From assembly GCA_016839055.1 (NCBI GenBank), contig JAEKNX010000012.1, forward strand, positions 62,001-126,000: a stretch of 64,000 nucleotides of DNA, in the 5' to 3' direction. The notes beneath the pieces are model-generated. The model was not told where the DNA came from. It saw nothing but the letters and a program-made list of their open reading frames with translations, and searched no databases. Position numbers and translations under genes: made by a program. Positions 9,648 to 23,488 of this stretch are shown here, one piece after another (the first letter of the stretch is position 1; every line of letters starts with the position of its first letter). This DNA is from Spirochaetales bacterium. Its GTDB lineage: Bacteria > Spirochaetota > Spirochaetia > UBA9216.

Positions 9648-10406
9648 ATGAGTGTCACAAATGAAGAAATGATCCGGATTCTTGAGAATAAGGGCTATGG
9701 GATAATTCCGCCCGAGCAGTTCAGGATTGATATGGAAGACAGTTTTAAGGCAATCTGGGCTGATGTCGGAGCATATACAATGACCTCGGTTGAACGCGGT
9801 TACGCTCTCTATAAGGCGGTTCATTACATCATCGGAAACGCCGTCGGCGGAGACTTCGTAGAATGCGGTGTCTGGAAGGGCGGCTCCTGTATGCTGATTG
9901 CGCGAACCCTGCTCGAACTCGGCGTCACGGACCGCAGTATTTTTCTCTACGACACCTTCGAGGGAATGCCCGAACCCGGCGGCAATGATTATATTGCCTG
10001 GAACGGCAGATCGGTACATGAAAAATGGGAAGAGGACCGCCTCGGAGAAAAAAATAATTTCACATCCTGGGCCGTAGATCTTGATTCGGTAAAGGCAAAT
10101 ATTAAATCGACAGCCTATCCCGAAGATAAGCTCATATTTGTTCGGGGGCCCGTCGAAGAGACTCTCAGGAATGTCCGGCCTGATAAAATAGGTCTTTTAA
10201 GGCTGGACACCGACTGGTATGAGTCAACGAAGGCCGAACTCGAATTGCTCTATCCAAGGCTTACCTGCGGCGGAGTTCTCATTCTCGATGATTATGGGCA
10301 CTTCACCGGCGCTAAAATGGCTGTGGATGAGTATTTTGCGGGCCACGGGTCTCCGCCGCTCCTGAACCGGATAGATTATACCGGCAGGGTTGCAGTTAAA
10401 AACTGA
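9648..10406 (+). CDS. TylF/MycF-like O-methyltransferase family protein
   Basis: 252 residues. The SAM-binding segment is GDFVECGVWKGGSCML and is followed by FLYDTFEGMPEP. Near residue 195 comes the family mark LLRLDTDWYESTKAELELLYPRL, with the metal-binding aspartates, and then GGVLILDDYGHFTGA. This is the macrocin O-methyltransferase fold, usually found with glycan or antibiotic sugar genes. It begins ten bases after ligA. Given the nearby sugar genes, a role in methylating a surface or flagellar sugar is plausible but is inference. The stop overlaps the convergent PEGA gene by 11 bases. Confidence 0.85.
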   Translation: MSVTNEEMIRILENKGYGIIPPEQFRIDMEDSFKAIWADVGAYTMTSVERGYALYKAVHYIIGNAVGGDFVECGVWKGGSCMLIARTLLELGVTDRSIFLYDTFEGMPEPGGNDYIAWNGRSVHEKWEEDRLGEKNNFTSWAVDLDSVKANIKSTAYPEDKLIFVRGPVEETLRNVRPDKIGLLRLDTDWYESTKAELELLYPRLTCGGVLILDDYGHFTGAKMAVDEYFAGHGSPPLLNRIDYTGRVAVKN

Positions 10407-14418: not shown

Positions 14419-15924
14419 ATGAATAATATAGTAATAATAAACGCCTCCGGACTGTCGGAATACGCAATGAAAGATATGGGAAACGGCAGGAATTCGGTGG
14501 AATTCGCCGTGGAAGCGGCTCTCAAAATGCCGGCGACAGGCAGGGCGGTCATTATAGATGAGCTATGCCCCTGTCTTGAGTATCTATCGTCTTTCACAAA
14601 GAAGACGAGGGCGAAAGCTTCCGCCTCCGCCCTCATTCAAGCCCTTATAGAGCTGTCCGAAGGTTATGACAATATATTTTATTTTTACGCGGACTGCCCG
14701 CTGATTGATACCGATCTTGCAGGAAAGATGTATAGAAATCATCTGAAGTATTTTTCAGAATATACCTTTGCCGACGGCTATCCCGTGGGATTGACTGTGG
14801 AGATAATAAAGACGTCGGTTCTGCCTCTTGTGGCCAAACTTGCCGAGAACGATGACTCTGTAGCCGGACGGAACACGGTTTTTTCGCTGATTGAAAAAGA
14901 TATTAACTCTTTTGATATCGAAACCGAAATTTCACCCGATGATCAGAGGCTGCTGAGGCTGTCGCTCTTTCCGGACACGAAGAGGAACTTTCTTCAGCTA
15001 AAGGCTATCATGAAAGTGATCAAAGATGGAAACGGTTTGCAGCCTGAACAGAGTCTATCAGGTGAAGTACTCAATGCGGTTAGGAAGCGGGGTGAGTTTC
15101 TCCGGACGCTTCCGGTATTCATCGAAATCGAGACGAGTTCTTCCCGTCCGCAGAGAATATCCTATATGCCCGAGGCTGCGGCGTCAGAAGGGGAGATGGC
15201 TGTTGAAGACTTCAAGGCGGTCCTCTCAAAAATATCTGATTTCTCCGGCGACGCGGTCATTAGCCTCTCTGTCAGAAATGAGCCGTCTAGTCATAGTTCT
15301 CCCGCGGCCCTTGCCGGGGCTGTGCTCGATCATCCCGATTTCAGTCTGCTTATTGAGACTTCGGGAATCGGCTGGACCGAAGAGCAGCTGAACCTTATTC
15401 TCGGTCTCGATTCTTCCAGGCTTACCTGGATAGTCGATCTTGATGCCCTCGACCGCGGACTTTATTCCAGTCTCCGCGGTGACGGACTGGATGAGGCCTA
15501 CAGGTTTGCTTCATCAATGGTTGAGAAATCACCTGGAAATGTATGGCTTCAGGCCGTCCGGATGAAGGACAACGAAACGGATATGGAGCAGTTTTATAAA
15601 TATTGGAAAGAGCGGACAAAAAATGTTATCATACAGAAGTATGACTGGTGCTGCGGGAGGCTTCCTCAGCGGAAGGTTACCAACCTTTCCCCTGTTAAGC
15701 GTCTTCCATGCTGGCATCTGAAGCGAGAAATGATAGTTCTGCCCGATGGTAGAGTTCCGGTATGCAGGGATGATCTTGACAATGAGATGGTTCTTGGGAA
15801 TATTTTTTCCGATGATATTGAATCTCTCTGGCAGAACGGGACGAATTACTATAAGCAGCATCTAAATGAGGAGTATCCGGATTTATGTCGGAATTGTGAT
15901 GAATACTACACCTATAACTATTGA
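14419..15924 (+). CDS. Spiro-SPASM protein: cytidylyltransferase-like N-terminus, degenerate radical-SAM core, C-terminal SPASM cysteines
   Basis: 501 residues. The first 200 resemble a nucleotidyltransferase (YDNIFYFYADCPLID resembles the metal site of sugar cytidylyltransferases). The middle looks like a radical SAM barrel, but where CxxxCxxC should stand the sequence reads ETSSSRPQRISYMPE, with no cysteine at all, so a 4Fe-4S/SAM cluster cannot form there. The C-terminus is a SPASM-like module with CWHLKREMIVLPDGRVPVC, an LGNI segment and CRNCDEYYTYNY. I recall such proteins being grouped as a spirochaete-restricted family of SPASM proteins without the radical SAM cysteines. It heads a coupled sugar-gene cluster whose next gene overlaps it by 26 bases. 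Its activity is unknown. Confidence 0.8.
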   Translation: MNNIVIINASGLSEYAMKDMGNGRNSVEFAVEAALKMPATGRAVIIDELCPCLEYLSSFTKKTRAKASASALIQALIELSEGYDNIFYFYADCPLIDTDLAGKMYRNHLKYFSEYTFADGYPVGLTVEIIKTSVLPLVAKLAENDDSVAGRNTVFSLIEKDINSFDIETEISPDDQRLLRLSLFPDTKRNFLQLKAIMKVIKDGNGLQPEQSLSGEVLNAVRKRGEFLRTLPVFIEIETSSSRPQRISYMPEAAASEGEMAVEDFKAVLSKISDFSGDAVISLSVRNEPSSHSSPAALAGAVLDHPDFSLLIETSGIGWTEEQLNLILGLDSSRLTWIVDLDALDRGLYSSLRGDGLDEAYRFASSMVEKSPGNVWLQAVRMKDNETDMEQFYKYWKERTKNVIIQKYDWCCGRLPQRKVTNLSPVKRLPCWHLKREMIVLPDGRVPVCRDDLDNEMVLGNIFSDDIESLWQNGTNYYKQHLNEEYPDLCRNCDEYYTYNY

Positions 15925-16864
15925 TAAGGTAAACTATACAGTTGTCGGGGGAAAGCGTGAGCCTTCGCTGAGGCGGCATTCTCCCCTCATTTCGATTGTT
16001 CTTTTGAGCAGAGCCGGAAGGGTCTTTAAGGCTGAGGCCTTATCTGTTCTGAGCAAGCTGAATGTTTATGAGATTATTTCCATCGAGGGAGAAGGAGCAG
16101 GCTGGGATGTTGAAGCTCTGTCGGTCAGATTTTCAGAGATAAGATTTGTCAGAATACACAAGAAAAACATCACCGAAGGTGAAAAAATCAACATCGGTAT
16201 TGAAGAGTCTCAGGCCAGATTCATCCTTGTTCTCTACGATGATATGAGTGTGGCCTCCGGCGGTATTTCAGAACGTCTTCTCGAGAGAATAACCGGGAGC
16301 GAGGCCGTCTGCACGGTTCCCCTCATTCAGTCGCGGAAGCAGTCAACGGTGCCAACAATCATGAGTCCGGCCTTTATGCGGAATACGCTTAAGATTGTTC
16401 AGCTTCCGCCCGCGGTCGACGGGATGGACAGCCTGTTTCCCTTTGACTTCTGCGGAATTTACAATCGTGAGCTGTTTACGCAGCTTGGCGGATTCGATAA
16501 ACGGATAACGGGAAAATGGTGGCAGAAGCTTGATTTTGGATTCAGGGCTCATATGTGGGGGGAGAAAATACAGTGCAGCACATCCTTCCGGATTAAATAT
16601 CTGGATGAAATCCCGGAAGAATCGATTACCCCTGATCAGAGTTACCGTTTCTTCTATCTTAAAAATCTTACTGTCAGGTTTGACGGCGACACCGGTTCAA
16701 TTCCGGCAGGCAGGTTTCCGGCCTATCATCTGAAAAGCGGCGAAAGTTTCTTTACATCCCTGAAAGAGTTTCGTGAGGCCCGCGAGTGGGTCGAGAATAA
16801 TAAATATCGTTTCAGAATGGAAGCCAGGAGCATCACCGAAATATGGGAGGCCCCGGAGCATTGA
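15899..16864 (+). CDS. Family 2-like glycosyltransferase
   Basis: 321 residues from ATG 15899. The alternative start at 15866 adds 11 residues without support. The GT-A pattern is visible: SPLISIVLLSRAG at the start, then ARFILVLYDDMSVASGG with the DD metal pair, FDFCGIYNRELFTQLGGFDKRI, and KWWQKLDFGFRAHMWG, the acceptor-site region. The protein is soluble or peripheral. Its first 26 bases overlap the spiro-SPASM gene and its stop overlaps the SpsF-like gene, so it is part of a tightly coupled set. Donor and acceptor sugars are unknown. Confidence 0.8.
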   Translation: MNTTPITIDKVNYTVVGGKREPSLRRHSPLISIVLLSRAGRVFKAEALSVLSKLNVYEIISIEGEGAGWDVEALSVRFSEIRFVRIHKKNITEGEKINIGIEESQARFILVLYDDMSVASGGISERLLERITGSEAVCTVPLIQSRKQSTVPTIMSPAFMRNTLKIVQLPPAVDGMDSLFPFDFCGIYNRELFTQLGGFDKRITGKWWQKLDFGFRAHMWGEKIQCSTSFRIKYLDEIPEESITPDQSYRFFYLKNLTVRFDGDTGSIPAGRFPAYHLKSGESFFTSLKEFREAREWVENNKYRFRMEARSITEIWEAPEH

Positions 16865-17547
16865 ACGGAAAAACCGGAATTTTTCTTCAAGTCAGGCTGA
16901 GTTCCACACGGCTTCCCCGCAAGGCTCTTCTGCCTATCGAAGGCAAGGCAATAATCACTCACGCAATGGAATCGCTCCGGCTGATGTCCGCCGACAGTTA
17001 TGTTCTTGTTACAGACAAGGAGAGCAGTAGGGAGGTAGAGCCCTATGCCTCTGATGCCGGCTTTCTTGTGTTCCAGGGGCCGCGAGATGATGTTCTGAGG
17101 CGTTTTGTTCTCGCGGCGGAGTTCTTTGGAGTAGATACGATCATCAGAGCTACCGGTGACAATCCCCTTGTCGACAGCACTTTGGCCGCGATGCTTATTG
17201 AGGCTCACCGGAGTATTTCAGCTGACTACAGCGGATTTGATGGGCCTCCGATAGGAAGCGGGGTGGAAATCCTGAAGACTTCCGCCCTCATTCAGGCGGA
17301 TGCGATAACATCGGACGGTTATGACCGTGAACATGTGAGCCCCTATCTGTACCTGCACCCTGAAAAATTCAGAATTAACAGGACTCCGGCACCCGCCGAG
17401 TTCTGTCTGCCTGATTCGCTCGTTACGATAGACACCGCGAATGATTATGAATATATTCGAAGACTCTATGCCGATCTTTATAGAGGCAGCCCCCTGGGGG
17501 TTATGGAAATAATCCCGTGGCTTGTGCAGAACAGGCGGCCTGTATGA
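16861..17547 (+). CDS. SpsF-like cytidylyltransferase (sugar nucleotide synthesis)
   Basis: About 228 residues. The conserved core is GIFLQVRLSSTRLPRKALLPI, the CTP-binding signature of the SpsF/CMP-sialic-acid-synthetase-like group. Later come RATGDNPLVDS with the metal aspartates and DGYDREHVSPYLYLHP. The start is uncertain: ATG 16843 has no ribosome binding site, while TTG 16861 follows GGGAGG by ten bases and forms a TTGA overlap with the preceding stop, so TTG is preferred. In SpsF-containing clusters the enzyme activates an acidic or modified sugar for surface structures. It sits directly before a PseG-like gene, its usual companion. Confidence 0.82.
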   Translation: MNGKTGIFLQVRLSSTRLPRKALLPIEGKAIITHAMESLRLMSADSYVLVTDKESSREVEPYASDAGFLVFQGPRDDVLRRFVLAAEFFGVDTIIRATGDNPLVDSTLAAMLIEAHRSISADYSGFDGPPIGSGVEILKTSALIQADAITSDGYDREHVSPYLYLHPEKFRINRTPAPAEFCLPDSLVTIDTANDYEYIRRLYADLYRGSPLGVMEIIPWLVQNRRPV

Positions 17548-19355
17548 AAATAAAAAAAAAGACAATTCTTCTTATTCCTTCAGTAAAAAAGGGCAATGGG
17601 ACCGGTCATATAAAACGCTGTACTGCTCTATCTGAGAGACTTCAGTCTTTGGGTGCCGATACCGGAATTCTCGTTGATTCATCTGAGGCCAGACGTTACA
17701 GCTGCTATTCGGCAGGGGACGTAGAGCAGTTTTTGACAAAAACACGAGGGAGAAAACCTCAAATTCTGACTGATTCGGTAGCATCAGATTGGGATGTCTG
17801 TATTTTTGATACTAGGCAGGCACGAACCTCCAGGCTGAACAGCTTCAACGGAATAAGCCTCTGCATCGGAATTGATGAGGGCGGCGCCGCGAGGGAGTTT
17901 TTTGACTATCTCATAGATATTCTTCCGAATCTCGAAAAAACTGATCCGAATATTAGTTCAACCGGTTTTCTTCAGCTTCCTGATGTTTCTAAGGCCGGGC
18001 CCCAGCTCGATTCAGTATTTAACAGGAATACGGTAAGAATTCTTATCACCTTCGGGGGTGAGGACCAGAGTGACCTGACTGGTAAATTCCTTTCGATGAT
18101 GGAGGATACCGGAATCGTCCACCAGTCCCAGCTTACCGTCGTTGAAGGGCCGCTTTTTAAAAAGCCCGTCTCAGGAGAAGGGTGGGAGATACTGAAGGCG
18201 CCGGCGAACCTGGGTACGAGACTCAGGGAATGGGATCTGGTAATCACATCTTTCGGTCTAACCTGTTTTGAGGCCCTCTACAGCGGTGTACCCGTTCTCC
18301 TTTTTAATCCTAGCGCTTACCACCGGAGTCTTGCAATAAGATCCGGAATTCCGGAGATTGGGGTAAATAATCCTGATGCCGGAAGGCTTGAAGATTACCT
18401 GAACAATCCACAGCGGTTGTACCGGGCGGTTGAGAATTATTCAGGAGCAGCCCGACTCGATCTTGCCTCCTACATCCTGGGGCTTTCTGTTGATGATACC
18501 AATATCTGCAGAGGATGCGGCCGGAAGCATCATAAGATAATGTACAGGACGCTGGAGTTCAGTTTTTTCAGATGCTTCAACTGCGGCATGGTAAACCAGC
18601 AGTCTTTCGGCAAAACTTCGATAGAGTACGGAAAAGAATATTTTTTTGAAGATTACAGGAAACAGTACGGCCGTACCTATCTCGAAGATTTTAATAATAT
18701 TAAGGCAGCCGGCCTCGTGCGATGTGCCGCGATAGGCAGACTGTCAGCTCAAGGGAATCTGCTTGATATCGGCTGCGGCTACGGTCCCTTTCTATCCGCG
18801 GCCGATGATTCAGGATATAACGTCTTCGGCATCGATATATCAAAGGACGCGGTTGCCTATACCAGGGATGAGCTCGGTTTTCGGACCGCCGCTTTGTCCT
18901 TCGAAGACTTCAATTCCGGAACATTTGAGCTACCGTCCTTCGATGTTATATCGATGTGGTTTGTCATCGAGCACCTGGCAGAACCGGCGCAGGCCCTTCG
19001 CAGGGTTAATTCCCTGCTTAGAAAAGGCGGCGTCTTTGCCTTTGCCACTCCGAATTATGACGGCATTACAAGACGGCGTTCGATGCGAAGGTTTCTTGAT
19101 GCAAACCCGCTCGATCACTACACTCTATGGAGCCCCTGGACGGCAAGAAGACTGCTTAAGAAATACGGATTCAAGCTGAAGTATATCCGTACACCTGTTG
19201 TCCATCAGGAGAGATTTTTCAGGGATCAGGATGCCTACCGAAGGCTGAATCCCAGGGTCAGGAAAATCCTGGATTGGCTTTTAGGGCTTATCAGCAGAGT
19301 GTTTCTCTTAGGTGATACATTTGAAGTCTACGCAGTGAAGCTGAATGACAGATGA
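17544..19355 (+). CDS. PseG-like sugar hydrolase/GT28-type domain fused to a zinc-finger SAM methyltransferase
   Basis: 603 residues. ATG 17544 gives a 4-base ATGA overlap with the cytidylyltransferase stop and is preferred over 17517. Residues about 1-310 resemble PseG/GT28: GNGTGHIKRC for the nucleotide-binding loop, then ILITFGGEDQSDLTGKF, and LVITSFGLTCFEALYSGVPVLLF for the donor-binding region. Residues about 320-360 hold a four-cysteine ribbon (CRGCGRK and CFNCGM). Residues about 400-520 form a class I methyltransferase with NLLDIGCGYGPFLSA and VISMWFVIEHLAEPAQAL. A likely reading is that one protein removes or transfers a UDP-linked sugar and methylates it. The fusion is worth attention. 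Confidence 0.78.
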   Translation: MKIKKKTILLIPSVKKGNGTGHIKRCTALSERLQSLGADTGILVDSSEARRYSCYSAGDVEQFLTKTRGRKPQILTDSVASDWDVCIFDTRQARTSRLNSFNGISLCIGIDEGGAAREFFDYLIDILPNLEKTDPNISSTGFLQLPDVSKAGPQLDSVFNRNTVRILITFGGEDQSDLTGKFLSMMEDTGIVHQSQLTVVEGPLFKKPVSGEGWEILKAPANLGTRLREWDLVITSFGLTCFEALYSGVPVLLFNPSAYHRSLAIRSGIPEIGVNNPDAGRLEDYLNNPQRLYRAVENYSGAARLDLASYILGLSVDDTNICRGCGRKHHKIMYRTLEFSFFRCFNCGMVNQQSFGKTSIEYGKEYFFEDYRKQYGRTYLEDFNNIKAAGLVRCAAIGRLSAQGNLLDIGCGYGPFLSAADDSGYNVFGIDISKDAVAYTRDELGFRTAALSFEDFNSGTFELPSFDVISMWFVIEHLAEPAQALRRVNSLLRKGGVFAFATPNYDGITRRRSMRRFLDANPLDHYTLWSPWTARRLLKKYGFKLKYIRTPVVHQERFFRDQDAYRRLNPRVRKILDWLLGLISRVFLLGDTFEVYAVKLNDR

Positions 19356-19367
19356 GGAATATAATCA

Positions 19368-20900
19368 GTGAATAATGATTCAATTCTAATATTAGGCGCG
19401 GGAATAATGCAGATTCCTGCCATCAAGGCCGCGAGAAATCTTGGATACCGGGTTGTTGTGGCAGATGTGAATGCTGAAGCTCCCGGAATCAGGGAGGCTG
19501 ACGCCTACGCAGCTATCGATCTGAAGGATTACAGGGCGATAGCCGCAGAGGCTGTGCGGCTCAGAAAGGAAGAGAATCTCGCCGCGGTCTTCACTGCCGG
19601 CACCGATTTTTCCTCAACAGTAGCTTACGCGGCGGTCCAGGCCGGCCTTCCGGGTGTTGACTACCCTGCAGCCCTCGCGGCGAGCAACAAGATACTTATG
19701 CGCAGGGCATTTTCGGAGGCCGGGGTTCCTTCTCCGGCATTTTACCCGGTGAAGAATGAGCTTGAAGCCTTTGAAGCCTGCGAGAAGCTGGAGTTCCCTG
19801 TTGTAATTAAGCCTGTAGACAGTATGGGCTCCCGCGGGGTTATAAGAATTAACAGCATGGATGACGAATTGGCAGTTCATGATGCCGTCAGGAAGGCTCT
19901 TGACGCTTCAAGAACCTCCGAAGCCCTGGTCGAGGAATTTATGGACGGCCCTGAGTTCAGTCTTGATGCACTTGTTTATAAGGGGGAGATAACAATCTGC
20001 GGATTCGCGGATCGGCATATATTCTTCCCTCCCTACTTTATCGAGATGGGGCATACCATGCCCACCATTGTGTCCGAAGAAATGCAGAAGGATGTCATCG
20101 ATGTTTTCTGTCGCGGCATCCGGGCGCTTGGAATTGATAACGGTGCGGCCAAGGGTGATATGAAATTTTCATCCGGAAAGGGAGCGATGGTAGGGGAAAT
20201 TGCCGCCAGACTCTCCGGAGGATTTATGTCTGGATGGACTTTTCCCTATCACAGCGGGATTAGTCTGACCGAAGCAGCTATCCGTATTTCCGCAGGAAGG
20301 GCGCCTGGCAGCCTCCGTCCACTGACTGCCAGGGTTTCGGCCGAGCGGGCTGCAATATCCATTCCCGGCAGAGTGGGGGATATCACCGGAATAGAGGATG
20401 CCCGCAGTCTTGACGGAGTCATGGATATTTTTCTTCATACATCAATCGGGGACAGGGTAGTTTTTCCCATAAATAACGTGCAGAAATGCGCAAACATCAT
20501 CACCGTCTCCGATGACTATCAGATTGCGGTTGATGCCGCTGAAGAGGCGGTGAGGCGGATACTGATAAGGCTGAAGCCTTTTGACCGGCAGACCAGGAAT
20601 TTTCTCCAGCGGAAAGGCTGGGAATGGGTTCCTGACGCGTTCTCTCTGGAGCATCCGGATAATATTAGTGAATTTGAGAAGCTGACCGCAGATGAAGGTA
20701 GGCTTCTGCCCTTCATCGATGAGGAATCGAAGGCCGACTGGCACGGATGGAGGCTGGGTGAGGCCTTCCGGAAGGTTCAGCTCGTAACCGGCTGCGCTGA
20801 CCGAGAGTTGAACAGGGGGTTCTGGGACGCTCTCCTACGGGGCGGAGTGCAGGGCGGTATCTGGTATATCGATACGATCAGGGCGGAGGAAGAGATCTGA
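19368..20900 (+). CDS. ATP-grasp ligase
   Basis: 510 residues. GTG 19368 follows the previous stop by 12 bases, with GAGGA ten bases upstream. The N-terminal pre-ATP-grasp domain starts ILILGAGIMQIPAIKAARNLGY. The ATP-grasp core spans about residues 100-300: FPVVIKPVDSMGSRGVIRI, ALVEEFMDGPEFSLDALV, and a metal site in GDMKFSSGKGAMVGEIAARLSGG. The family makes amide or thioester bonds through acyl-phosphates and is common in nucleotide-sugar and peptide-tailoring clusters. About 110 C-terminal residues (from about 400) have no recognisable domain. It closes the sugar cluster. The acid and amine it joins are unknown; ligating an amino acid to a sugar acid is one possibility. Confidence 0.8.
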   Translation: MNNDSILILGAGIMQIPAIKAARNLGYRVVVADVNAEAPGIREADAYAAIDLKDYRAIAAEAVRLRKEENLAAVFTAGTDFSSTVAYAAVQAGLPGVDYPAALAASNKILMRRAFSEAGVPSPAFYPVKNELEAFEACEKLEFPVVIKPVDSMGSRGVIRINSMDDELAVHDAVRKALDASRTSEALVEEFMDGPEFSLDALVYKGEITICGFADRHIFFPPYFIEMGHTMPTIVSEEMQKDVIDVFCRGIRALGIDNGAAKGDMKFSSGKGAMVGEIAARLSGGFMSGWTFPYHSGISLTEAAIRISAGRAPGSLRPLTARVSAERAAISIPGRVGDITGIEDARSLDGVMDIFLHTSIGDRVVFPINNVQKCANIITVSDDYQIAVDAAEEAVRRILIRLKPFDRQTRNFLQRKGWEWVPDAFSLEHPDNISEFEKLTADEGRLLPFIDEESKADWHGWRLGEAFRKVQLVTGCADRELNRGFWDALLRGGVQGGIWYIDTIRAEEEI

Positions 20901-20902
20901 TT

Positions 20903-21964
20903 ATGAAGCGGCTCTCTTTAATTTTGGTATTAATCATGTTTCTTCTTATTTCCTCCGCGCTTTTCGGTGAAGATGGAGATGAATCTTCTCCTCCTGTGCT
21001 TGTAGATATATCAGAATTAGCCGGAGAAACAGGAGCCGTACTAAGGTTCGATTACTGGAAGGGGATTTATGAACTGCGCAAGGGGAGCCGAAGCGTGAGG
21101 TTTACTGCCGGTACTTCCTGGTATCTCCTTAATTATACTGAACTAAGACCTGAGCTTGTCTCGGAGCTCACTAAGGACGGACACTTCCTTATAGATTATG
21201 AAACAGCGGCTGTAATAAAAGAGTTCTTCGTCAAGGCTTCTCCCGGGTCTTATGGAATAAAATATATAGTCCTGGATCCCGGCCATGGCGGCAAAGATCC
21301 AGGGGCAATCGGTTATTATTTGGATGATAATAACGAAAAGAAGGCGCTCAATGAAAAGGATGTAGTCCTTGAAACGGCAATGGAGACTGCGGCTCTTCTG
21401 GAGGCGCGCTATCCCGATAAAGAGGTTATCCTGACTCGAAGTGATGACCGTTATCTAAAGCTTGAAGAACGAACCGGAATTGCAAATTCTGTCGAACTCG
21501 CGGAAAATGAGTCCATGATTTTCGTATCAATTCATGCTAACGCGTCATTCAATTCAAAAGCCCGGGGATTTGAGGTATGGTATCTTCCTCCTGAATACAG
21601 GAGGGATCTGATTGATCCTGAAAGTTTCAAAGATATTGATTCAGATGTTCTTCCTATCCTCAATACAATGCTGGAAGAAGAATATACAATAGAGAGTGTA
21701 ATTCTCGGTGAAAAGCTGCTTGTTTCACTTGACGGGCAGGTTGGCAATCTTACCGAGAACAGGGGGCCTAAGGAAGAGTCGTGGTTTGTTGTGCGGAACG
21801 CGAAGATGCCCTCTGTGCTAATTGAGCTTGGTTTTGTCACGAACAATGATGAAGCCGTGCTTCTTGCTTCCCATGCATACTTGAAGAAACTCTCCAAGGG
21901 AATCTATAATGGAGTTGTTGATTTTATTAATGACTATGAACATACCAGGGGGTATATAAAATAA
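20903..21964 (+). CDS. N-acetylmuramoyl-L-alanine amidase (amidase_3 type)
   Basis: 353 residues with a signal peptide (about 1-22). Residues about 30-110 form a small N-terminal domain. The zinc-amidase domain starts near residue 120: KYIVLDPGHGGKDPGA (first Zn histidine), KALNEKDVVLE (Zn glutamate), FVSIHANASF (second Zn histidine) and VLIELGFVTN (catalytic glutamate). It cleaves the peptide side chain from peptidoglycan in the periplasm during cell separation or flagellar assembly. It starts two bases after the ATP-grasp stop and is followed after two bases by the GerMN gene, so all are likely one transcript. Confidence 0.95.
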   Translation: MKRLSLILVLIMFLLISSALFGEDGDESSPPVLVDISELAGETGAVLRFDYWKGIYELRKGSRSVRFTAGTSWYLLNYTELRPELVSELTKDGHFLIDYETAAVIKEFFVKASPGSYGIKYIVLDPGHGGKDPGAIGYYLDDNNEKKALNEKDVVLETAMETAALLEARYPDKEVILTRSDDRYLKLEERTGIANSVELAENESMIFVSIHANASFNSKARGFEVWYLPPEYRRDLIDPESFKDIDSDVLPILNTMLEEEYTIESVILGEKLLVSLDGQVGNLTENRGPKEESWFVVRNAKMPSVLIELGFVTNNDEAVLLASHAYLKKLSKGIYNGVVDFINDYEHTRGYIK

Positions 21965-21966
21965 AT

Positions 21967-22455
21967 ATGAATGTCAAACGGTTTTCAGGCAAGTTTTTTA
22001 TACTATTGTCGATCTTTATTGTTTTTTTCCTAGTCACTCTAATTTTTATAACATTCGATGCCGACAGAAGGTTAGAGAGGGTTCTCTTTTTTCCTGATGA
22101 AGACGGTCAGCAGCTGCTTGGCGAGCTGAGAAGATTGCCTGTTAGGGATGAGCTTGCGGGAAACATAGAATTGTTCATAGATGAATTGATTCTGGGTCCC
22201 GGCGAGATTGATTTGTACAGGCTGTTTCCTGAAGAAGTAAAGCTGGAAAGTTTGCTTCTTGATGGAAACACGCTATATCTCGGGTTTACAGAGAATCTGG
22301 TCACTATGGCGGAAACGGTACCGTTAGGTCTTAACGGAATAATAACGGCCGTTGCGGATGCTGTAGTTTTCAATTTTCCTGAGGTTAAGGAGGTAAAAAC
22401 AGCAATAGGCGGAGAACCCGTAGCAGAGAGTGTAAGCGATGTTGAAAAAAAATAA
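21967..22455 (+). CDS. GerMN-domain membrane protein
   Basis: 162 residues with one membrane helix (about residues 10-30). The rest shows the GerMN pattern: RRVLFFPDEDGQQLLGELR-like start, then LFIDELILGPGEIDLYRLFPEEVKLESLLLDGNTLYLGF, ending in a VPLGLNGIITAVADAVV-like helix. GerMN domains are small extracytoplasmic binding modules often placed near amidases. It is translated just behind the amidase gene. Confidence 0.8.
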   Translation: MNVKRFSGKFFILLSIFIVFFLVTLIFITFDADRRLERVLFFPDEDGQQLLGELRRLPVRDELAGNIELFIDELILGPGEIDLYRLFPEEVKLESLLLDGNTLYLGFTENLVTMAETVPLGLNGIITAVADAVVFNFPEVKEVKTAIGGEPVAESVSDVEKK

Positions 22456-22528: not shown

Positions 22529-23488
22529 ATGAAACGTTTCGGAATTCTTCTTTGTATAGTGCTGATAATGGCAGCATTTCCTGTTTTCGCAGAAGAATCA
22601 GTACTTATAGATTTTGCGCAGCTCGCGGCTGATAGAGATGATGGTGAGAACGAGCTTACTTTCATTGATTTCTCCGATAAAGCCGGCGCAGGCTTTACTG
22701 AAGAAGAGAAAGGGTACATGAAAACATCTCTCGCGATAAGCAACTGGGAAATACAACTTGCATCATCAGCAAAAACAGTGACCAATCAGAGATACTCATA
22801 TGTTCTTCCAGCACCCGTAAAAGAGGGTGCGACAAGATACGGCGGAGAAACAGTACTTGGCGCAAGAATCCATTTCCCCGATGAGCCGTATAATTCATGG
22901 GCGATCGTAAGACCACCCTTCGATATTCCTGCATATGAAAAGAAAGATGAGCAGGATCTGGCTGGATCAAAATATGACGGTCTTGGTGTAGTAAAGAATG
23001 TTGGTGTAATTAAGAGCTTAACTGTAAATATTCTTGGAAAGAACTTTCCTAATGGTTTCGGCGTAATTCTTGCGAATGAAAACCACGAAGAAAAGAATAT
23101 TTTCATGAGCTATCTTGATTTCGACGGTTGGAAAACCATCACATGGAACAATCCTAACTACATCGAAGATGTAAGAAACCGTGAAGTAAGAAAACTTCCG
23201 CTCTATCCTAATGCAACACCTCTTTATAAGATAGCAGGCCTTGTTTTCTACAAGGACGGCGCTCAGACAGGCGGTGATTTCATTACCTATGTCAAAGATA
23301 TTACTCTGACTTATGATAAGGCTTTCCTTAATCTTCAGAATGATATTGACGATGAATCTCTCTGGGGTATTCTTGGAGACAGGGAAGAGGCCAGAAGAAA
23401 TTCTGAGTACGAAAGACTCGGAAACAAGCAGGTTCTCAGATACATTGAAAAGCAGAAAATGCATTCAGATGTCGAAGTAACTGAATAA
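22529..23488 (+). CDS. flaA: Flagellar filament outer-layer protein FlaA
   Basis: 319 residues with a signal peptide (about 1-21, ending FPVFA). The mature protein matches spirochaete FlaA: LIDFAQLAADRD, then FIDFSDKAGAGFTEEEKGYMKTSL, then TRYGGETVLGARIHFPDEPYNSWAIVRPPFDIPAY and LVFYKDGAQTGGDFITYVKDI. FlaA forms the outer sheath of periplasmic flagellar filaments around a FlaB core. The gene is monocistronic: a perfect consensus promoter lies upstream (AAGGAG precedes ATG by seven bases) and a strong hairpin terminator follows. The sugar cluster upstream may modify filament proteins, but nothing here proves this. Confidence 0.95.
   Translation: MKRFGILLCIVLIMAAFPVFAEESVLIDFAQLAADRDDGENELTFIDFSDKAGAGFTEEEKGYMKTSLAISNWEIQLASSAKTVTNQRYSYVLPAPVKEGATRYGGETVLGARIHFPDEPYNSWAIVRPPFDIPAYEKKDEQDLAGSKYDGLGVVKNVGVIKSLTVNILGKNFPNGFGVILANENHEEKNIFMSYLDFDGWKTITWNNPNYIEDVRNREVRKLPLYPNATPLYKIAGLVFYKDGAQTGGDFITYVKDITLTYDKAFLNLQNDIDDESLWGILGDREEARRNSEYERLGNKQVLRYIEKQKMHSDVEVTE

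Follow-up and report, generated by a model that had tools for sequence, protein, structure and literature searches.

A spirochaete spiro-SPASM protein lacks the core radical-SAM cysteines and keeps the auxiliary four-cysteine site within a putative flagellar-glycan operon

The window analyzed here is a 64,000-nucleotide stretch of a Spirochaetales bacterium genome (GCA_016839055.1, contig JAEKNX010000012.1, positions 62,001 to 126,000), and all coordinates below refer to it. Its relevant part holds a gene for a spiro-SPASM protein followed on the same strand by sugar genes, two genes for an amidase and a GerMN-domain protein, and a flagellar filament gene. The features are as follows.

14419..15924, + strand: spiro-SPASM protein (TIGR04321), an open reading frame of 501 aa with all three core radical-SAM cysteines lost
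14419..15033, + strand: residues 1-205, degenerate cytidylyltransferase (SpsF-like) domain (hhalign to the SpsF family; structural match to 6oew)
15034..15633, + strand: residues 206-405, radical-SAM-type barrel without [4Fe-4S] ligands (fold matches to SuiB and BtrN; no PF04055)
15145..15168, + strand: residues 243-250, RPQRISYM at the CxxxCxxC site (intact relatives have, for example, CPQRCSYC in L011)
15634..15921, + strand: residues 406-501, SPASM/Twitch-type domain (C431, C449, C490, C493; PF13186; conserved end CDEYYTYNY)
15899..16864, + strand: GT-A glycosyltransferase (reading frame called from 15866; likely start at 15899, the invariant Met12; overlaps the spiro-SPASM stop)
16843..17547, + strand: SpsF-like cytidylyltransferase with the nucleotide-binding signature retained (PF02348, 106 bits)
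17517..19355, + strand: PseG-like hydrolase fused to a SAM methyltransferase (TIGR03590, 37.1 bits, below the cut-off; PF13489, 88.5 bits)
19368..20900, + strand: ATP-grasp ligase with an L-amino-acid-ligase C-terminal domain (PF13535, 62.9 bits; PF18603, 57.7 bits)
20903..21964, + strand: N-acetylmuramoyl-L-alanine amidase (PF01520, 156 bits)
21967..22455, + strand: GerMN-domain protein (PF10646, 34.2 bits)
22529..23488, + strand: FlaA, the outer-layer protein of the periplasmic flagellar filament (PF04620, 244.7 bits)

We found the first of these proteins scores 516.7 bits against TIGR04321 ("spiro-SPASM"; curated cut-off 250), which makes it a member of that family, and matches PF13186 (SPASM) at residues 431-494 with 39.6 bits. 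Its core site lies within ETSSSRPQRISYMPE (residues 238-252), where R243, I247 and M250 stand at the three positions occupied by Cys in all intact homologues, the spacing of the motif is unchanged, and the core motif of BtrN aligns onto residues 243-250. A comparison of RPQRISYM with CPQRCSYC of L011 shows that the loop has kept its spacing and some of its residues and has lost just the ligands. The 501 residues contain no CxxxCxxC at any position; the nine cysteines are at 50, 52, 93, 411, 412, 431, 449, 490 and 493, and PF04055 (Radical_SAM) does not match the protein at E<=1; the cut-off of this profile is passed by five of six intact homologues and by none of three motif-less ones (the window protein, L060 and L249). 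As judged from its sequence, the protein does not qualify as an active radical SAM enzyme, since it has no CxxxCxxC.

A paralogue that might act in trans was sought in the same genome by profile searches with PF13186 and TIGR04321, which gave no obvious stand-in. PF13186 found one other SPASM protein, whose core motif is intact and whose family profile is a different one. TIGR04321 found the gene itself over the cut-off, its SpsF neighbor and one weaker match that reads as MoaA-like.

The four C-terminal cysteines C431, C449, C490 and C493 align with C169, C187, C232 and C235 of BtrN (PDB 4m7s), which we take to be the auxiliary-cluster ligands of that enzyme. Among homologues from the phylum, these cysteines are present in all 99 complete sequences, both the 45 without the core motif and the 54 with it. 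Hence, the two first claims of the preliminary description, that the core cysteines are gone and that those of the SPASM domain remain, were both confirmed.

The structure prediction which that description had proposed yielded a cytidylyltransferase fold joined to a radical-SAM/SPASM barrel. The AlphaFold model (57 sequences; pLDDT 91.7, pTM 0.89) matches the Leptospira cytidylyltransferase 6oew over residues 1-236 (Z 21.9, rmsd 2.8, 220 aligned), SuiB over residues 187-493 (Z 24.1, 265 aligned) and BtrN over residues 228-499 (Z 22.6, rmsd 2.5, 229 aligned, 23% identity). By predicted fold, therefore, a partial TIM barrel is present (SuiB Z 24.1, BtrN Z 22.6). With a profile of 57 relatives, the only solved structures matched were BtrN and 6oew.

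The N-terminal domain had been described as a nucleotidyltransferase, and its ancestry is in agreement: beyond the fold, hhalign places it with the SpsF family at a probability of 98.8 (E 1.4e-16, 20% identity). However, the domain is degenerate. The sequence S-T-R-L-P-x-K near the N-terminus is presumably the nucleotide-binding signature of SpsF/KdsB-type cytidylyltransferases; its strict form is found in 29 of 46 SpsF sequences, and even a looser S/T-x-R pattern in this region is found in none of 101 spiro-SPASM members. Hence, the N-terminal domain is degenerate throughout the family, whereas the barrel is degenerate in only the part of it that has lost the core motif. Because the signature is missing in every member, use of CTP by this domain appears doubtful.

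To determine whether the loss is universal, as an alignment of homologues had been proposed to reveal, we examined 128 loci from three genome searches and fetched regions, which gave 101 distinct proteins of the phylum. Of these, 54 have CxxxCxxC intact and 47 lack it (two of the 47 are partial), so the loss is not universal. The intact sequences are spread over 35 of 59 families, 33 with the intact form only and two (f24 and f26) with both states. In a second sample, the best 80 of 488 confirmed loci taken nearest to the query first, 71 are intact and nine have lost the motif, and all 80 have the SPASM cysteines. The preliminary description held that intact homologues in close relatives would make the loss a local decay only. 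Such homologues do exist within the class of the window, but among sequences that cover the motif there are none in its genus or family, where all six lack it (L001, which is the window, L002, L003, L010, L021 and L024).

Local decay would mean a gene under relaxed constraint on its way to being lost, and its one sign is that three cysteines are gone. We consider it very improbable and reject it given the family-wide loss, the invariant SPASM cysteines and the evolutionary rates: the whole gene is open in the window and its relatives, and dN/dS (NG86, whole gene) is low in three motif-less groups of close pairs, at 0.11 (g26, five near relatives), 0.14 and 0.15, compared to 0.21, 0.21, 0.13, 0.11 and 0.09 in five intact groups. 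For the barrel alone, the three motif-less groups have a dN/dS of 0.13-0.16. Two more distant motif-less pairs have higher values (0.27 and 0.31), and within the genus of the window dS is saturated.

Residues of the old pocket also outlast the cysteines. In motif-less sequences, the three residues of GEP are retained in 35, 39 and 41 of 45, E313 in 43, T314 in 38 and G316 in 36, and position 249 is aromatic in 38. Two residues of the cluster loop behave likewise, Tyr249 in 34 of 45 and Pro251 in 36 of 45. Because GEP, E313, T314, G316, the aromatic residue at 249 and P251 are retained, this pocket is still shaped by selection in motif-less proteins.

This retention invites the explanation that the pocket of motif-less members goes on binding SAM or a nucleotide and serves non-radical work, either regulation or ordinary catalysis. 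In its favor are the persistence of GEP, E313 and T314 and a Tyr at 249 that is more frequent among motif-less (34/45) than intact (20/54) sequences. Canonical radical-SAM enzymes hold SAM via a unique iron, though, and that iron is absent here; the window protein itself has N in place of G at 287, and the retained residues may be structural. We regard binding in the old pocket as unlikely.

To count the losses, we used a tree of 99 sequences from which the motif columns were excluded. The motif state changes 16 times on this tree, a rough count because 32 of 96 inner branches are open, compared to about 33 times with shuffled labels; at least eight of the changes are forced by well-supported (starred) branches. 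A count that allows only losses was also applied, as it is implausible that three cysteines would be regained in register; depending on which of the 196 rootings tried was used, it gave between 17 and 22 losses. Holding all motif-less sequences as one clade is 648 log units worse, with a p-AU of 0.0466; being just below 0.05, this value speaks only weakly against a single origin.

Fewer losses would be needed if the gene had passed between clades, and a motif-less form that arose a few times and then spread horizontally could take the place of many independent losses. The marginal p-AU and the open third of the inner branches leave room for it, but the replaced loops differ between clades, motif-less copies are found in the ordinary operon of their class, and the starred branches still force their changes. 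A history of few losses plus transfer is in our judgment improbable. We return, then, to repeated loss: because it recurs across many lineages under purifying selection, the sequences indicate that loss of the motif is not local decay. The stronger proposition, that a radical-SAM/Twitch protein was converted many times independently to a non-radical form while its auxiliary four-cysteine site was never given up, is plausible, and we would rate its chance at somewhat under one half.

The gene had been said to stand at the head of a coupled sugar cluster, and this holds for the class as a whole, in which the operon is conserved in the order spiro-SPASM, glycosyltransferase, SpsF, PseG-methyltransferase fusion, ATP-grasp ligase, amidase, GerM and FlaA. 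Among 81 large loci (the fetched regions plus the window), the methyltransferase is a neighbor in 55, the glycosyltransferase in 50, the amidase in 48, the ATP-grasp ligase in 47 and FlaA in 47. Outside the class, the full operon is missing at many loci and a shorter order is common, in which a gene judged by eye to be SurA-like is followed by spiro-SPASM, SpsF and PseG.

The GT-A glycosyltransferase has no Pfam family match over the cut-off. Its AlphaFold model (pLDDT 88.2) matches polypeptide GalNAc-transferases in all 50 PDB matches listed (best E 1.1e-13), which makes it, on the model, a candidate flagellin Ser/Thr O-glycosyltransferase.

Several further observations concern the neighborhood. 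In one genome (G111, L249:5413-7998), a single chain of 862 aa is matched by all three of the SpsF, PseG and methyltransferase profiles. The ATP-grasp ligase, which carries LAL_C2 and lies among sugar genes, could link an acyl group to an amino sugar through an amide. The Amidase_3 and GerMN genes (20903-22455), which lie between the sugar genes and FlaA, accompany the operon in 48 and 46 of the 81 loci, respectively. Upstream of the operon, at 9648-10406, is a TylF-type O-methyltransferase (PF05711, 148.8 bits) whose profile is found in only four of the 81.

We looked for a neighboring gene that tracks the motif state within the class (nine tests, 50 loci) and found none, the lowest value being that of XseA (p = 0.018, uncorrected). 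Intact and motif-less copies have the same company in these 50 loci: the glycosyltransferase is present in 30/30 and 19/20, the ATP-grasp ligase in 28/30 and 18/20, and FlaA in 26/30 and 17/20, respectively. Over all 81 loci, SpsF is rarer near motif-less copies (20/37) than near intact ones (36/44; p = 0.0087), which we take to reflect a mix of classes. This rarity counts against a role as SpsF partner outside the class.

These neighborhoods bear on whether the protein is purely a scaffold or a heterodimer partner of SpsF, with even its intact copies non-catalytic. The N-terminal signature lost in 101 of 101 members would fit, as would an SpsF-like gene in 56 of the 81 large loci. The exact CxxxCxxC kept in 54 sequences over 35 of 59 families argues instead for radical use there, and we hold a role that was never catalytic to be unlikely.

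To determine how far the gene goes together with flagella, we compared 392 genomes of the phylum and found spiro-SPASM over the cut-off in 290 and flagellin in 351. Within the class, 135 genomes have a strong spiro-SPASM match and all of them have flagellin, and 36 flagellin-bearing genomes, all of family f20, have no spiro-SPASM match at all. Hence, flagella as such do not need this protein. Full-length NeuB is present in 21 of 21 spiro-SPASM genomes tested, in none of four f20 genomes, and in one of five genomes without flagellin (the other four have weak partial matches only). The f20 lineage, which lacks spiro-SPASM and, in the four genomes tested, NeuB, seems to do without the whole glycan pathway. 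In the genome of the window, NeuB (with a SAF domain) is on another contig with no sugar genes around it.

The T. denticola flagellin glycan reportedly contains a 3-deoxy acyl group, and the detailed structure described for it would be in keeping with the action of a methyltransferase and an amide ligase. We considered whether this acyl group was the product of the ancestral radical step and dropped the idea as a general explanation, as the genomes presumed to be T. denticola-like (g26) are motif-less.

Glycans on spirochaete flagella have precedent. Published work describes FlaBs of Treponema denticola that carry a glycan of 450.2 Da essential for filament assembly and motility (PMC9481697), putative FlaB1 glycans that bridge the filament core and sheath in Leptospira (PMC13144727), and nonulosonic acids made by Leptospira (PMC3438082).

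Taken together, these results lead us to propose, at about an even chance, that spiro-SPASM is a flagellar-glycan biosynthesis protein whose radical step has been dropped repeatedly, so that what is left is a non-radical scaffold or partner protein whose metal site is structural. The pathway served would supply the periplasmic flagellar filament with an O-glycan of the nonulosonate type. The ancestor may have combined a cytidylyltransferase-like domain already without its nucleotide-binding signature with a BtrN-like radical-SAM/Twitch module that tailored the sugar. The N-terminal domain could dock on the active SpsF next door or hold a nucleotide sugar. In many lineages, including the family of the window, replacement of the three core cysteines would have ended the radical step, and the protein would have been retained because a second, non-radical role was needed, most likely as a link between the steps of SpsF, the glycosyltransferase and the methyltransferase. 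The C-terminal four-cysteine site would be kept as a structural metal element.

The usual view of auxiliary SPASM/Twitch clusters is that they assist radical chemistry. An auxiliary site is of no use for radical electron transfer once the radical cluster is gone, yet it is invariant in the motif-less proteins, and no other observation hints as strongly at a second function. The auxiliary ligands are in all 99 complete proteins and the radical cluster is gone from 45 of these, which separates the two functions. If the proposal is correct, an auxiliary cluster can function independently of radical chemistry, and synthesis of the spirochaete flagellar glycan relies on an indispensable scaffold to which tailoring by radical chemistry is an optional addition. 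Since motif-bearing and motif-less homologues lie in near-identical operons, they can be compared directly. The operon also provides a candidate gene set for the spirochaete flagellin glycan, including a glycosyltransferase shaped like animal polypeptide GalNAc-transferases.

Of the overall interpretation in the preliminary description, the core loss, the SPASM retention, the N-terminal fold and the cluster position stand; the named family TIGR04321 was already known, however, and the N-terminal domain is degenerate. Our literature searches found no publication on the family under the name spiro-SPASM, none linking it to flagella, and none on a single family that has lost the core repeatedly while its auxiliary site stayed invariant. 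The TIGR04321 model itself merges motif-bearing and motif-less members, and its name is silent on the two states and on function. A radical-SAM-like protein without radical chemistry is not new in kind, since NCBIfam already has a pseudo-SAM/SPASM model, TIGR04347, which we take to be haloarchaeal. The likeness to it is by model name alone (radical-SAM-like, regarded as non-radical, SPASM kept); the window protein is unmatched by it at E<=1, and the model was seen only as a weak match of other proteins. With 6oew and the neighboring SpsF, spiro-SPASM members share the N-terminal fold, but by the pattern used they have lost the nucleotide-binding signature. The closest comparison is BtrN (PDB 4m7t, 4m7s), presumably the radical-SAM dehydrogenase of 2-deoxystreptamine synthesis, which resembles residues 228-499 of the window protein in fold and has the same four auxiliary-cluster cysteines; BtrN differs in having CNRTCWYC where the window protein has RPQRISYM and in being without a cytidylyltransferase-like domain.
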